This document shows positions 29,207 to 34,500 of a DNA stretch of 64,000 nt, piece by piece (within the stretch, counting starts at the first letter, position 1; each line of letters starts with the position of its first letter). This DNA is from Flavobacteriales bacterium (lineage in GTDB: Bacteria > Bacteroidota > Bacteroidia > Flavobacteriales_D > Sanyastnellaceae): the NCBI GenBank assembly GCA_027491075.1, contig JAIXWX010000022.1:1-64000 (forward strand). The letters run 5' to 3'. The notes below the pieces were generated by a model. The model made no database searches. It was not told the DNA's origin and saw only the letters and a list, made by a program, of their open reading frames with translations. Made by a program: the position numbers and the translations under genes.

Positions 29207-29214
29207 CAAAGCTA
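29207..29214 (-). promoter_or_regulatory. -7 box of fabI
   Basis: Minus strand TAGCTTTG, 20 nt before the fabI ATG, overlapping the TAG stop codon of the flavoprotein gene. The -33 element is not evident. Confidence 0.45.
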
Positions 29215-30444
29215 ATCGGATTTTTTTATTCGTGAAGAAATATGCTGAGCGGCAATCCAAGAAGTCGTCCATGCTGCTTGAAAATTGAATCCTCCCGTCA
29301 ATGCATCGATATTTAATACTTCACCAGCGAAATAGATTTTGCTAAATCGTTTGGATTCCATTGTTTTAAAATCTATTTCTTTTAAATCTACACCTCCAGC
29401 GGTCACAAACTCATCCTTAAAGGTAGACTTGCCTGATACATTGAGCTTACAAGCACAAATTTCTATTGCCATTTTTCTTATCAGTTCGTTGCTTACATCA
29501 GCCCATTTCATCGCCTCTGAAATATACTTATTTATCAAGGAGTTCCAAAGTCTAATGGGTATAGGTATGGGAGAAAATGTGTGTATGTTTTTCTTGGGCT
29601 GTTGTATCCTTAATTCTTTAAATAGCTCTATAAGTTCTTCCTGCTCGATACCGACCCAATTCACTACCACCTCAAAAGAATAATTCAAGCGAAATAGTTC
29701 TGTCGCTGCCAAACTGGATAATTTCAACACTCCAGGACCACTGATCCCCCAATGTGTGATTAAAACGGGTCCCCAACTTTCTTGATTTAAAGAGGGGATG
29801 CATACCAAGCCATTTGGAACGGATAGTCCTGCCAAATGCTTCAATCTTTCATCATCAATATTAAATGTAAAAAGAGAAGGTATTTGCGGACTCATCTCAA
29901 GACCAAAAGTCTTGAGAAAATCCCAGAACTGAGGGCTACTTCCCGCAGCAACAATGACATATTCCGCTTCTAACTCGGATTGATCCGACAATGATATTTT
30001 CCAAAGATTGTCCTTCCTTTCTATGTTCACCACTCCAGACTGCGAGCGTATCGAGATGTTCCTTTCTTCTGCTATCCGAAGAAAACAATCAATAATTGTT
30101 TGTGAGCTATCTGTGGTTGGAAAAACACGATTATCCTTTTCTGTTTTCAGATCCACGCCTCTTTTTAGAAACCAATCAAATGTGTCTGCTGGCTGAAACT
30201 GTGAAAAAGGGCCCCTCAGTTCTTTTTTTCCTCTCGGGTAAAAGGCAGTCAATTCCTTTGGATCAAAGCAGCTGTGTGTAACATTGCACCTTCCGCCTCC
30301 GCTGATTTTAACTTTAGAAAGAAGCTTGTTTGATTTCTCCAGTATCACAACAGAATACATCGGAGAAACATCAAGATTTATCGCTGCAAAAAATCCTGCT
30401 GCACCACCTCCAATAATTGCAATGGTTGGCTTCACTTTGCTCAT
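29212..30444 (-). CDS. YhiN/HI0933-family flavoprotein
   Basis: A 410-residue FAD-dependent oxidoreductase-like protein of the HI0933/BaiN family, with unknown or uncertain activity (some homologues are annotated as aminoacetone oxidase). It shows the Rossmann dinucleotide motif IIGGGAAGFFAAINL at the N-terminus, the family's KVKISGGGRCNVTHSC (near 45), a variable insertion domain, and the FAD-binding end FAGEVLNIDALTGGFNFQAAW. It is cytoplasmic and separately transcribed; a TAAATTCG box ends 4 nt before the ATG. Confidence 0.9.
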   Translation of the reverse strand: MSKVKPTIAIIGGGAAGFFAAINLDVSPMYSVVILEKSNKLLSKVKISGGGRCNVTHSCFDPKELTAFYPRGKKELRGPFSQFQPADTFDWFLKRGVDLKTEKDNRVFPTTDSSQTIIDCFLRIAEERNISIRSQSGVVNIERKDNLWKISLSDQSELEAEYVIVAAGSSPQFWDFLKTFGLEMSPQIPSLFTFNIDDERLKHLAGLSVPNGLVCIPSLNQESWGPVLITHWGISGPGVLKLSSLAATELFRLNYSFEVVVNWVGIEQEELIELFKELRIQQPKKNIHTFSPIPIPIRLWNSLINKYISEAMKWADVSNELIRKMAIEICACKLNVSGKSTFKDEFVTAGGVDLKEIDFKTMESKRFSKIYFAGEVLNIDALTGGFNFQAAWTTSWIAAQHISSRIKKSD

Positions 30445-30448
30445 GGGG

Positions 30449-30456
30449 CGAATTTA
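30449..30456 (-). promoter_or_regulatory. -7 box of the YhiN-type gene (leaderless)
   Basis: Minus strand TAAATTCG, then CCCC, then ATG. A TTTCG sits at about the -33 distance. Confidence 0.4.
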
Positions 30457-30489
30457 TGCTACCCTTTCGAAACGAAACGGTATAAAACC

Positions 30490-30517
30490 AAAAAGTCCCA
30501 CCTCGTTGGCGGGACTT
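30490..30517 (-). terminator. Terminator of the candidate small RNA
   Basis: Minus-strand RNA AAGUCCCGCC-AACGA-GGUGGGACUU forms a 10-bp stem (one G-U) followed by a U run. It lies between the YhiN-type promoter and the small RNA body. Confidence 0.75.
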
Positions 30518-30617
30518 AATGGCTTAAACTGAAAAACTAAAAACTATCGTAATTGTTTGAGCCAGGACGGCTCAACTCAACTAACTCTTAATGTAAAAAG
30601 GTTGCCCTTATTACTTT
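30490..30617 (-). ncRNA. Candidate small structured RNA, possibly 6S-type
   Basis: The 314-bp gap 30445-30758 has no credible ORF but contains a complete transcription unit on the minus strand. It has a consensus -7 box TATATTTG (30620-30627), about 127 nt of sequence, and an intrinsic terminator. Predicted pairing: a closing stem UAAGGGC (30604-30610) with GCCAUUA (30517-30523, one mismatch), an apical hairpin UUGAGCC-GUCCU-GGCUCAA (30557-30575) extended by AGUUG/CAAUU, and a large AU-rich internal bubble. A rod with a central bubble is the shape of 6S RNA, and flavobacteria have a short 6S type (6S-Flavo). Family membership is inference. SRP RNA, tmRNA and RNase P RNA do not fit. Confidence 0.5.
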
Positions 30618-30619
30618 GA

Positions 30620-30627
30620 CAAATATA
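30620..30627 (-). promoter_or_regulatory. -7 box of the candidate small RNA
   Basis: Minus strand TATATTTG, full match to TAnnTTTG. The -33 position lacks TTG and instead holds an inverted repeat TATGGAT-AAA-ATCCATA (30640-30656), which might bind a regulator. Confidence 0.5.
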
Positions 30628-30687
30628 CACAGAATATTCTATGGATAAAATCCATATAACAGATATTTAACGGATTTTAGATAGTCA

Positions 30688-30703
30688 GCGGGTCTAGACC
30701 CGC
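30688..30703. repeat. 16-nt perfect palindrome GCGGGTCTAGACCCGC
   Basis: A GC-rich perfect palindrome in an AT-rich gene-free interval, 55 nt after the stop of the FAD oxidase gene (minus strand). It has no T run, so it is a poor terminator; it could be an mRNA 3'-end structure or a protein-binding site. Confidence 0.6.
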
Positions 30704-30758
30704 GAAATCACCCGTAAAAGCATTAAAACCAATCTTGACATCAGTTTAATCTTCAAGT

Positions 30759-32180
30759 CTACGGCATAAAACCCTGATTATCAGGGATAATCTTCCCTGG
30801 GTTCAGTATTCCTTTGGGGTCAAATGTGGCCTTTATCCCTTTCATTAACTCGAGCTCAAAGGGGGTAAAGACGATGTCCATGTACTCCTTTTGGACTAGA
30901 CCAATTCCATGCTCACCACTTAGCGTTCCACCCATATTTTTTGTAGCGACGAATATTTCTCTTATCGCTAAAGGAAGTTTTTCTTGCCAAACGGTATCGG
31001 TTAGTTCTCCTTTAATGATATTCACGTGAAGATTTCCATCCCCGGCGTGCCCATAGCAAACGGATTGAAATCCATAACTCGCCCCAATACGCTTTACCTC
31101 TTTGAGAAGTTCTGGCAACTTAAATCTTGGTACAACGGTATCTTCTTCTTTATATACACTGTTGGACTTGACTGCCTCCCCCACTTTTCTTCTAAGCTTC
31201 CAGAGTTGATCCTTTTTCTGTTGATCGTCAGCAAATAAGACCTCCCCAGCATCAAACCGAGAAACAACTTCATGAATTACTTCACAATCTGCAAGAATAG
31301 AATCCATATGGTTTCCATCTACCTCTATAAGAAGATGTGCTTGTATTTCTTGATCAATAGGAAGTTGCACATCTTGAACATATTGAAGCGTCCAGTCAAT
31401 GGCGTCACGTTCCATGAACTCTAGAGCAGAAGGTGTAATTCCTTCTCTAAAGATGGCACTCACCGCTTCACACGCCTTTTCGGCAGAACGAAAAGGGACT
31501 AGCATTAAAACGTTGGTAGCAGGTTTGGGAATGAGTTTCAATGTGGCTTTAGTAATGACCCCCAACGTCCCTTCACTCCCCACCATGAGTTGTGTAAGAT
31601 TGTATCCAGTAGAGTTTTTTAAAGTATTAGCACCTGTATTTATAACCTCACCATTGGCAAGAACGACCTCCATGTTCAGAACGAAATCCTTAGTAACTCC
31701 ATATTTAACTGCATGAGGTCCTCCAGCATTTTCGGCCAGATTCCCTCCTATGAAACAACTTCCCCTGCTGCTTGGATCTGGAGGATAATAAAGCCCCTGT
31801 TTTTCAACTTCTTCTTGTAGCACCTGCGTTATTACACCAGGCTCAACCACCACTTGCAAGTTATCCGTATCTATTTTAAGGATCTTGTTCAATCGCTCTA
31901 GAGAAAGCCCCACTCCACCGTATACGGATAAAGCACCTCCGCTTAATCCTGTGCGGGCACCAATGGGCGTAACACAGATGTTGCTTTCATAACAGTGTTT
32001 TAGGATATCCTGCACGTGTGAGGTAGATTCGGGCTTGAGCACAACATGAGGAGGAAAAACAAGGTCTTCGGTTTGATCAGATCCATATTCTCGAAGGTAC
32101 TCCTTGTCAATAAAGACATTGGAACCTCCTATCATCTCGATAAAACGAGCTACGTCTTGATGGTCGATTGCCTTATACAT
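30759..32180 (-). CDS. GlcD-like FAD-linked oxidase
   Basis: A 473-residue flavoprotein of the vanillyl-alcohol-oxidase superfamily, similar to glycolate/D-lactate oxidase subunit GlcD. The FAD-binding domain has GARTGLSGGALSVYGGVGLSLERLN and YPPDPSS; the FAD-oxidase C domain ends with CYGHAGDGNLHVNI and GTLSGEHGIGLVQKEY. No cysteine-rich Fe-S domain is fused. It probably oxidises D-lactate or glycolate, passing electrons to quinone or a partner protein; the exact substrate is not deducible. I choose the start at 32180 (MYKAIDHQD); an in-frame ATG at 32210 would add 10 residues. Confidence 0.88.
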   Translation of the reverse strand: MYKAIDHQDVARFIEMIGGSNVFIDKEYLREYGSDQTEDLVFPPHVVLKPESTSHVQDILKHCYESNICVTPIGARTGLSGGALSVYGGVGLSLERLNKILKIDTDNLQVVVEPGVITQVLQEEVEKQGLYYPPDPSSRGSCFIGGNLAENAGGPHAVKYGVTKDFVLNMEVVLANGEVINTGANTLKNSTGYNLTQLMVGSEGTLGVITKATLKLIPKPATNVLMLVPFRSAEKACEAVSAIFREGITPSALEFMERDAIDWTLQYVQDVQLPIDQEIQAHLLIEVDGNHMDSILADCEVIHEVVSRFDAGEVLFADDQQKKDQLWKLRRKVGEAVKSNSVYKEEDTVVPRFKLPELLKEVKRIGASYGFQSVCYGHAGDGNLHVNIIKGELTDTVWQEKLPLAIREIFVATKNMGGTLSGEHGIGLVQKEYMDIVFTPFELELMKGIKATFDPKGILNPGKIIPDNQGFMP

Positions 32181-32267
32181 TTCGGCTTTTTTTACAAAGA
32201 AAATGGGCATAATGGTTGATTTACAGCTCCGATTAAAAATATACTAACAGATAGAAGTAGTATTCGT

Positions 32268-32292: not shown

Positions 32293-34500
32293 ATGATACA
32301 TTTTAAGCCCTTTCTTTTCGCTGTTTTCGTAGTATTTACTCTGTCTACAGCCAGTGCCCAAAAACAACTTTCAAATGAGTTAATTTGGTTTAGTCCTGAA
32401 TTTTCGGCAGAAAGCATGGACGATATTATATCCATGAATGATGGATTACATTATACCGTATTAGAATTTTCAGATCTTACAGGAAGTACTATAGTAAAGT
32501 ATGACTTTGCTACTGGTACAAAAAAAGCAACCGTTGCCTCATCCGCTTCGATATTCGGAAACATAGAGAAATCAATTGAAAGCTATTCCTTCAATAAAGA
32601 TGAAAGTAAGTTACTTATACAAACTTCAACAGAGCCCATCTATCGCCGAAGTTTCACTGCGGAGTATTTCGTCTACGACCTTAATTCTAAAAATACCACT
32701 CGTATAGCAGGACAAGATGAGAAAGTGCGCCTTGCAGATTTTTCACCAGACTCAAAAAAGGTAGCTTTTGTTAGAAATAATGATATCTACTATAAGGACT
32801 TGGTTACAAATGAAGAAGTGAGGGTTACTAGTGATGGTAAGGTGAATGAAATTATCAATGGAGCCACGGATTGGGTTTACGAAGAGGAGTTTGGATTTGA
32901 TAAGGGTTTTTACTGGAGCCCTTCAGGCAGTCATATTGCGTATTATCGTTTTGATGAAACTAAAGTACCAGAGTTCAGCATGGACCTATACGGTGAACTT
33001 TATCCAGAAGCGTACAGGTTTAAATATCCAAAAGCGGGAGAAAAAAACAGTGATGTTACAATTTGGATTTATAATGTTTCAAACAAGTCAACACTTCAAG
33101 TAAATACTGGTAATGATAAAGAACAGTATTTCCCACGAATTAAGTGGTCATCAAGTGATAAGGAGTTGTGTATAATGCGAATGAACAGACATCAAAACAA
33201 GTTGGAGTTTCTACTCACAGATTTGAACAAAGTTGAGCCTTTCGAACATTCAACAAATGTCATTTATAAAGAAGTCAGCGATACTTATATAGATGTAAAT
33301 GACGCTTTGACATTTCTCTCGGATGGAAGCGGTTTTATTTGGAACTCTGAGAAAAACGGATTCAATCATTTGTACCGATTCGATATGAAAGGCAATGAAG
33401 TTTTAGCCCTTACTTCTGGCAAGTGGGATGTAATTGATTTTTATGGATACGATGAGCAAACATCCACTGTTTATTTCAGCAGTTCGGAGGATGGTGCTAT
33501 TGAGAAGCATATTTACTCCATTCAGCAGGGAAAGAAAAAGCCGATTAAAAAGCGACTGAATAGCGGAAGCGGTTATAACGATGCCACTTTTAATAAAGGT
33601 TTTAAATTTTTCATACTTCAAACCAGTGATGCCAATACACCTTTTTCTTTTAGCTTGCATGAATCCTCAGGTAAGCTCATAAGAGGCATAAAAGTCAACG
33701 TAGTATTGAAACAACGTTTGGCATCCTATGGACTTTCTAAAAAGGAATTTTTCACTTTTACCAACCGCGATGGTATTGATTTAAACTGTTGGATGATCAA
33801 ACCCAAGAATTTTGACCCCAATAAAAAATATCCGGTTCTTGTGGCCATATATGGCGGGCCAGGTCACAATACAGTGCTGAATCAATGGGAAGGCAGAAAC
33901 TATCTATGGCACCAGCTCTTAGCGAAAGAAGGCTATATTGTAGTGAGTGTTGATCCCAGAGGGACGCAATACCAAGGTAGAAAGTTCAAGCATGCTACCT
34001 ATATGAATTTAGGCAAACTAGAAACGAATGACTTTATAGATTTTGCGGGACATTTAGGAAAGCAGTCTTTTATCGATTCCACGCGCATTGGAATTCAAGG
34101 TTGGAGTTATGGCGGTTATATGACTAGTTTATGCATGACAAAAGGTGCTGATTATTTCAAGACAGGAATAGCGGTTGCTCCGGTTACCAATTGGAAATAT
34201 TACGATAGCATTTATACTGAGCGCTTCATGAGAACTCCTCAGGAAAATGAAGGCGGATATGAGAACAACTCCCCTATCAACTTTGTGAAAGAGCTAAAAG
34301 GTAAGTTCTTAATTGTACATGGAAGCGCAGATGACAACGTTCATTTTCAAAACACCATGGACATGATTACAGCATTGGTAAAAGCGAATAAGCAATTCGA
34401 TCAGTTTACCTATCCAAACAAAAACCATGGAATCTACGGGGGTAATACGCGTTTGCACTTGTATACAATGATGACCAACTATCTGAAAGCAAACTTATAA
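32293..34500 (+). CDS. Dipeptidyl peptidase IV (S9 family)
   Basis: Serine exopeptidase that removes X-Pro or X-Ala dipeptides from the N-terminus of peptides. The 735-residue protein has a signal peptide (ending STASA), an N-terminal beta-propeller with the substrate-anchoring double Glu in DWVYEEEFGFDKGFYWSP (near 195), and an alpha/beta-hydrolase domain. The nucleophile is in GWSYGGYMT (Ser near 606), the Asp in GSADDNVHF (near 680) and the His in KNHGIYGG (near 712). It is periplasmic or outer-membrane associated. It lies directly upstream of three POT peptide transporters, in the same direction, which suggests a peptide-use locus. Confidence 0.94.
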   Translation: MIHFKPFLFAVFVVFTLSTASAQKQLSNELIWFSPEFSAESMDDIISMNDGLHYTVLEFSDLTGSTIVKYDFATGTKKATVASSASIFGNIEKSIESYSFNKDESKLLIQTSTEPIYRRSFTAEYFVYDLNSKNTTRIAGQDEKVRLADFSPDSKKVAFVRNNDIYYKDLVTNEEVRVTSDGKVNEIINGATDWVYEEEFGFDKGFYWSPSGSHIAYYRFDETKVPEFSMDLYGELYPEAYRFKYPKAGEKNSDVTIWIYNVSNKSTLQVNTGNDKEQYFPRIKWSSSDKELCIMRMNRHQNKLEFLLTDLNKVEPFEHSTNVIYKEVSDTYIDVNDALTFLSDGSGFIWNSEKNGFNHLYRFDMKGNEVLALTSGKWDVIDFYGYDEQTSTVYFSSSEDGAIEKHIYSIQQGKKKPIKKRLNSGSGYNDATFNKGFKFFILQTSDANTPFSFSLHESSGKLIRGIKVNVVLKQRLASYGLSKKEFFTFTNRDGIDLNCWMIKPKNFDPNKKYPVLVAIYGGPGHNTVLNQWEGRNYLWHQLLAKEGYIVVSVDPRGTQYQGRKFKHATYMNLGKLETNDFIDFAGHLGKQSFIDSTRIGIQGWSYGGYMTSLCMTKGADYFKTGIAVAPVTNWKYYDSIYTERFMRTPQENEGGYENNSPINFVKELKGKFLIVHGSADDNVHFQNTMDMITALVKANKQFDQFTYPNKNHGIYGGNTRLHLYTMMTNYLKANL

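Follow-up and report, generated by a model that had tools for sequence, protein, structure and literature searches.

The gap between a glcD-like and a yhiN-like gene of an uncultured flavobacterium very probably holds a small-RNA gene of an apparently undescribed family. The gene lies on the minus strand of the window (the whole 64,000-nt stretch of DNA analysed, from a Flavobacteriales assembly) and shows the general features of a stand-alone bacterial small RNA – its own promoter box, its own terminator, conservation, structure and no open reading frame. Judged from sequence, we are highly confident that it is a new stand-alone small RNA, and we favour the reading, with a probability of about 0.55, that it is a trans-acting regulator working through a conserved core and belonging to a family that we did not find described. 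A search of the open-licence literature with the letters of the core found no paper, and among the stand-alone regulatory RNAs of bacteria this one apparently forms a family of its own, with FopS, Rfp18 and 6S-Flavo as the nearest published examples in that literature.

Small RNAs of the Bacteroidota are best known from Bacteroides, and their workings elsewhere in the phylum are largely open. The original prediction, which took the element for a 6S-type RNA, was right about a small-RNA gene that is conserved and has the signals of a promoter, a structure and a terminator, and wrong about the 6S-type identity. The family provides a test object in which a 23-nt sequence stays constant in changing surroundings, with empty sites, short paralogues, cousins in another family and a copy in a phage. 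Identifying the binding partner of the core would reveal the workings of small RNAs in a large lineage of uncultured bacteria, and the benefit that a phage draws from carrying such a copy.

The predicted RNA and its conservation

Table 1. Predicted parts of the small RNA, its neighbouring genes and the phage copy (window positions unless another sequence is named).
Feature	Position	Strand	Basis or remark
Predicted small RNA	30486..30615	-	start 30615, end about 30490-30486
-7 promoter box TATATTTG, Bacteroidota TAnnTTTG type	30620..30627	-	read from sequence
5′ hairpin P1 (GUAAUAAGGGCAACCUUUUUAC)	30593..30614	-	fold and covariation among 13 homologues
Hairpin P2, apical UUGAGCC-GUCCU-GGCUCAA at 30575-30557	30550..30583	-	consensus and single folds
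Conserved, mostly unpaired core UAGUUUUUAGUUUUUCAGUUUAA (23 nt, U-rich)	30524..30546	-	alignment A3 and folding
Terminator hairpin, with AGCCA/UGGUU outer helix added	30486..30524	-	alignment, covariation
YhiN/HI0933-like flavoprotein, downstream of RNA	29212..30444	-	Pfam PF03486
GlcD-like FAD-linked oxidase, upstream of RNA	30759..32210	-	Pfam PF02913/PF01565
DPP IV-type peptidase, synteny anchor common to cousin RNA	32293..34500	+	Pfam PF00930/PF00326
Phage copy: core, promoter box, terminator	L339 8191-8251	-	IMGVR_UViG_3300032282_001835

The predicted RNA measures 130 nt from its start to the conserved GGTT at 30486 and folds at -46.1 kcal/mol (z -5.8), with none of 200 shuffles as stable. 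From the predicted start it is a string of local hairpins, with an AU-rich segment predicted to pair partly with the 5′ linker and a core whose unpaired probability in this copy is 0.64. The individual signals that had been proposed are present, and the proposed coordinates are correct: the promoter box is readable in the sequence, the apical hairpin of P2 is found, the intrinsic terminator has a stem (AAGTCCCGCC..GGTGGGACTT) at 30517-30493 on the minus strand, and Pfam supports both the YhiN-type flavoprotein and the GlcD-like gene as neighbours. No minus-strand open reading frame of at least 60 aa was found in the gap between glcD and yhiN, as the original prediction had said, and an 82-aa plus-strand frame (30284-30532) overlaps the terminator end of the RNA. 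A coding function for the element was rejected, with no ATG frame through the core seen by eye in the printed homologue sequences.

The box matches TAnnTTTG at -12 to -5, described as the sigma-A consensus in a report on Flavobacterium psychrophilum (PMC9723704). In 19 of 33 loci the start predicted from an exact TAnnTTTG falls 0-3 nt ahead of where the 5′ hairpin begins, a count made without a shuffle control and an agreement that is partly circular because each sequence had been cut at its presumed start before it was folded; the other 14 loci have no exact box in reach, several of them with near misses.

Relatives were searched for in the window's own family (working label f1, with f4 for another family of the order and g-labels for genera) and beyond. 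A DNA search of f1 found matches to the window RNA in 26 of 114 genomes. A 20-nt core pattern occurs with at most one mismatch in 29 of 399 genomes of the order, and exactly in 26, all of them f1, as against six of 399 for the reversed pattern; matches to the 20-mer in G164, G179 and G048, and a second one in G016, are strays without the unit. In a collection of genome contigs from which the window's own genome was possibly left out, the exact core occurs at 31 loci, all in MAGs titled Flavobacteriales, 'Chryseobacterium gleum' or Crocinitomicaceae.

A covariance model of the 3′ module (R1), run at E 0.1, matches in 110 of 299 genomes of the order and yields 33 strong copies (>80 bits), all in f1; among the weaker matches, 21 sites in 20 stretches were inspected. 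The core UAGUUUUUAGUUUUUCAGUUUAA is unchanged in all rows of an alignment (A3) of 28 of these 33 copies, from ten genera, which leaves out the two g18 copies (L025, L026); those diverge from the core after CAGU. Genus g16 carries an additional half-core form. There are two strong copies per genome in both g8 genomes and in seven of eight g9 genomes, and one elsewhere. In 395 phylum genomes a joint model that includes the f4 cousins (R2) gave nothing convincing beyond the window's order; four weak R2 matches besides G000 (E 3e-4 to 7e-4) are by eye terminators without the core.

The window's own genome (G000) has one strong copy and two weak matches. One of the latter, C25:135371-135429 (+) (L159, 34 bits), combines a degenerate core with a terminator that has the same GCC/GGUU closure, and is possibly a degenerate relative; the other, at C22:238096 (37 bits), resembles the 3′ end of a protein-coding gene.

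Covariation favours a transcribed, folded element. In f1 the terminator has 96% standard pairs, and six of its 14 pairs change on both sides. Double-change cells number 25, where shuffles give 9.5 and none of 500 does as well, and sliding the partner strand leaves no more than 3; less clear are two coarser measures, with 21 of 500 shuffles as high for the number of double-changed pairs and 77 of 500 for pair types. In a joint alignment of 23 rows, including cousin and half-core forms, 10 of 14 terminator pairs are double-changed (56 cells versus 15.5). For P1 and P2 in 13 full-length copies, six of 17 pairs are double-changed, giving 18 cells versus 5.9 in shuffles, again with 0 of 500 as high. 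All four alignable pairs of P1 are double-changed somewhere among these homologues; in P2 this is true of two of 13 pairs, while six never vary and five depart solely through unpaired cells, and P2 is missing from the short paralogues. Conservation in relatives and compensating changes in the stems, both of which the original prediction had proposed to look for, are thus found, contradicting the lack of conservation that it had named as counting against the element.

The core itself is predicted to be mostly unpaired, with a mean probability of 0.81 (range 0.52-0.97) over 33 homologues, against means of 0.34 for the 5′ part and 0.25 for the 3′ part. The consensus fold of 13 copies has separate P1, P2 and terminator hairpins with an open segment between P2 and the terminator; that of nine other copies recovers P2 and the terminator and lacks P1. 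The modelled architecture is modular: one or more hairpins, a mostly unpaired core and then a covarying terminator.

A single contig (L339) among the 2.9 million of IMG/VR carries the exact 23-nt core, and the reversed core, used as a control, and the exact f4 core are both without a match there. Its proteins include portal, head-maturation-protease and tape-measure proteins (PHROGs), and the unit lies between the tape-measure and head-protease genes on the strand opposite to both. The TATATTTG box begins 30 nt upstream of the core, a hairpin terminator follows directly, and the whole is little more than core and terminator; model R2 scores it at 59 bits (E 3e-10 over 85 kb). Named phage and plasmid collections gave no core match. 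Partial cores occur in 12 viral contigs in all, eight with a 17-nt half core and five with an 18-nt part, and L339 alone among viral contigs is, on sequence features, a convincing copy. One contig, L342, reaches 34.8 bits but has no hairpin, and the remaining partial-core contigs are read as chance, apart from an intergenic element of a 103-kb contig (L346 977-1176, minus strand, IMGVR_UViG_3300031758_000022). This is a long inverted repeat with 22 nt of the core in its interior, and its 200-nt stretch folds at -75.5 kcal/mol, a value taken without shuffles; it is a suggestive case, which could be another phage RNA bearing the core or a coincidence.

Proposed mode of action of the core

The core is likely to be the working part of the RNA, because the 5′ domains of different genera have neither sequence nor size in common. 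Transcription, stability and mode of action are all inferred, and the proposed course is as follows. Transcription would start, from a sigma-A-type promoter, at the base of the 5′ hairpin, a structure that probably serves as a stabilising cap for the RNA end; one or two hairpins of free sequence would keep the U-rich core open, and the strong intrinsic terminator would end the transcript. The open core could then be the seed for base-pairing with A-rich segments in target mRNAs, perhaps close to their start codons, and such pairing would lower translation of the targets, possibly with the aid of a U-binding protein. Pairing of the core with mRNA is our tentative choice for this last step.

Searches for mRNA targets came out largely negative. 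The complement of the core, allowing up to three mismatches, occurs at 57 sites in 21 of the 26 carrier genomes; 29 are exact (the RNA genes), two are half-core paralogues and 26 are others, which is no excess, the reversed pattern giving 37. Four other sites have at most two mismatches, and three of them lie at or up to 28 nt before an ATG, which speaks for pairing; one of the frames, in G000, has just 20 codons. The best site, in ssb of G020 (22 of 24 nt), has no counterpart in the closest ssb-like genes from 25 further genomes, 17 of which are carriers. Duplex energies of the f1 core with the start regions of 346 (G000), 133 and 201 genes, with starts called crudely as the first ATG, are no better than those of 60 shuffles (z 0.3, -0.6 and -1.2). 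The core pattern has 0, 0 and 1 matches in start regions of the local sequence; in the G000 sample the 0 matches compare with a mean of 1.4 for 100 shuffles, and A-rich shuffled patterns place 6-9% of their matches in start regions, a high background.

These negative results speak for a rival reading that we hold possible, in which a U-preferring protein binds to the core and its spaced AGUUU(UU) repeats, is delivered or sequestered by the RNA, and is hijacked by the phage copy. The 23 nt are invariant among the aligned copies, whose 5′ parts are unrelated, the AGUUU(UU) repeats are spaced 7-8 nt apart, and the phage copy retains hardly anything besides core and terminator. An invariant stretch of this length also exceeds the usual seed. 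Proteins with an RRM_1 domain are a partner type known in Bacteroides, but they do not follow the RNA: RRM_1 was found in 14 of the 22 genomes searched, including seven of eight non-carriers and the carriers G000, G002, G010, G013, G016, G018 and G020, and is missing from the carriers G003, G008 and G017 and from four carriers of f4 (G027, G038, G134, G140), so that no co-occurrence with the RNA is seen in this set.

Most studied bacterial stand-alone small RNAs act by pairing. This, together with the FopS example, in which one segment serves both RbpB and mRNA binding, is why pairing is preferred over protein docking, and the preference is a judgement, not a result. FopS is described from Bacteroides as a set of paralogous small RNAs of ~65-70 nt bound by RbpB, with a conserved seed in the 5′ part, 12-15 copies per genome and a reported phage copy (PMC11697453). 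On that description, the window family resembles FopS in its predicted sigma-A-type promoters and in having a phage copy, and differs in that its invariant part stands just before the terminator. A likeness in paralogues with a common segment may be partial, there being one or two strong copies per genome, and RRM_1 proteins are absent from several carriers and present in others. As for the FopS/GibS trait of a seed complementary to translation start regions of susC-type mRNAs, the 346 crudely called genes of G000 show no class-wide excess over shuffled cores.

Like Rfp18 as described from Flavobacterium psychrophilum (PMC9723704), the window RNA stands alone, has several stem-loops and is conserved across flavobacterial species. 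The two are set apart by description: Rfp18 is reported to be widely conserved in its own genus, and for the window family model R2 gave no convincing copy outside its order. The Bacteroides small RNA BTnc049 (Rfam RF04179) was also considered and set aside, its match being at chance level (14.9 bits against a cut-off of 81.9, E 5.7) and its likeness to the window RNA a weak overall alignment that includes the terminator.

A broader version of the docking idea, which we think unlikely, would make the core a lineage-wide RNA handle for a conserved host factor, either protein or RNA, mounted by the host on exchangeable 5′ domains of several small RNAs, with at least one tailed phage using a reduced copy, core plus terminator, for tapping or blocking that factor. 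If true, it would amount to a new RNA-based control system in an order without a recognised 6S-Flavo RNA.

Genomic setting and the 6S reading

By BLASTP, glcD lies upstream of the RNA in 21 of the 23 full-form loci (L001-L023), with a 135-aa frame between the two in L004; the exceptions are the g8 copies L012 and L019. Downstream of the RNA comes yhiN, fabI or, in g9, a long open reading frame, and because this gene differs between genera the unit is not tied to one gene. In six loci glcD is followed directly by fabI (g5, g6, g11, g14) or by yhiN (g4) with no RNA between, which by sequence comparison makes them natural empty sites. In g18 (L025, L026) the locus has no glcD, and the RNA is flanked by the DPP IV gene and yhiN. 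An additional short copy of 79-99 nt, made up of one hairpin, the core and the terminator, occurs elsewhere in genera g8 and g9; it follows a TerB-DnaJ gene in g9 and an aromatic amino acid lyase gene in g8 (one of each assigned by Pfam, the remainder by eye).

The association with glcD, and the end of the unit 41 nt before yhiN in the window, would suit a cis element, either a 3′ UTR or terminator of glcD or a leader or attenuator of the downstream gene. This is improbable, since 19 of the 33 loci have their own promoter box at the hairpin foot, the downstream gene changes, glcD does not precede L012, L019, any short paralogue or the copies in g18 and f4, and the phage copy is opposite in strand to its neighbours. 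A riboswitch, leader or attenuator in particular was rejected because the downstream gene varies and the unit has its own box.

The original prediction had pictured a 6S-type RNA, an open-promoter mimic that binds RNA polymerase, with a rod-like fold, a closing stem and a large bubble. Fitting length, the apical hairpin, an AU-rich open segment and the lack of a recognisable 6S-Flavo RNA in the window's own genome favour this identity, which is nevertheless very improbable. An Rfam scan of the window gave nothing above any cut-off except two tRNAs, and the proposed search with the 6S-Flavo covariance model had no match in the interval, an outcome that the original prediction had itself named as counting against it, nor was there a 6S or 6S-Flavo match in 30400-30760 even at E 10. 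The same model matches 30 of 247 phylum genomes, 12 of them over the cut-off, which shows that the search works; all 30 carriers (E 0.001) belong to the window's class and to a different order. At a lax E of 10 in 32 genomes nothing rose over the cut-off (best 31.8 bits, E 0.018, in G300), with weak matches in 22 of the 32 and also in three of 14 unrelated control genomes. Within the window's order 6S-Flavo is unrecognised in all 40 genomes searched, yet it is found in other families of the class; from the window's order it has either been lost or there become too diverged for the model.

The fold also argues against a 6S RNA. Between the first 20 and last 40 nt, the expected number of pairs is 0.03 on average and at most 0.15 in 33 homologues, versus 9.6, 6.7 and 8.4 in three true 6S-Flavo RNAs, and the rod with a large internal bubble was not seen. 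The closing helix that defines 6S is, in the predicted folds, absent from the family; the weak closing pairs within the interval first proposed use the promoter box itself. Against a 6S identity stand also the conservation, which is concentrated in the mostly unpaired core between self-contained hairpins, and the paralogues of 79-99 nt with a single 5′ hairpin. Similar length, occurrence in Bacteroidota and a stand-alone nature are shared with 6S-Flavo as described (Rfam RF01685, PMC2864571), from which the window RNA differs in lacking a model match and a closing stem and in having local hairpins and an invariant, mostly unpaired core.

That the element works as DNA, as an integration or recombination site marked by an exact short motif common to host and phage, is scarcely credible given the compensatory changes in the terminator and 5′ hairpin, a scan of ten proteins of the phage stretch that showed no integrase, and the promoter box and terminator retained by the phage copy.

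The cousin family and further candidates

Weaker but consistent R1 matches among the 299 genomes of the order come from seven f4 genomes (E 3e-6 to 4e-4), with a second f4-type copy in G134 (E 1e-3). The f4 RNA (L168-L175) has a long 5′ stem of free sequence with an invariant loop CUUUCAUCGUCUCACUCU, followed by AUAGUUUUUCUGUUUCAUAGCC and the terminator. The stem is present in single folds of all eight loci, with a promoter box at its foot in seven; RNAalifold missed it because MAFFT misaligns it. Seven of the eight loci adjoin a divergent DPP IV gene, and in the window the same gene stands beside glcD and the RNA; as the search made no use of this synteny, it supports a common origin of the f4 and f1 RNAs.

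No Rfam match was found in 18 loci with f4 cousin and related RNAs, and a strict terminator finder detected no unit upstream of the DPP gene in 18 loci (one of f1, 13 of other families of the order and four from outside it). The f4 core and loop pair with start regions in an f4 genome not clearly better than shuffles do (z -0.5 and -1.6). The complement of the loop CUUUCAUCGUCUCACUCU contains AUGAAAG, which is like a start codon followed by Lys.

Other elements met on the way include a further candidate small-RNA family in f1, with TTTAGTATTTTGGTTAAGGTTAAGG or a close variant before a terminator (L163, two sites in L164, and L165-L167); related genes lie near the sites in L163, L164, L165 and L167. 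In two genomes of the window's genus (L158, L160), TTTAGATTTTTGGTTTC likewise stands with a terminator, and because the TAG within it apparently ends a small gene as its stop codon, this element looks like a 3′ UTR.
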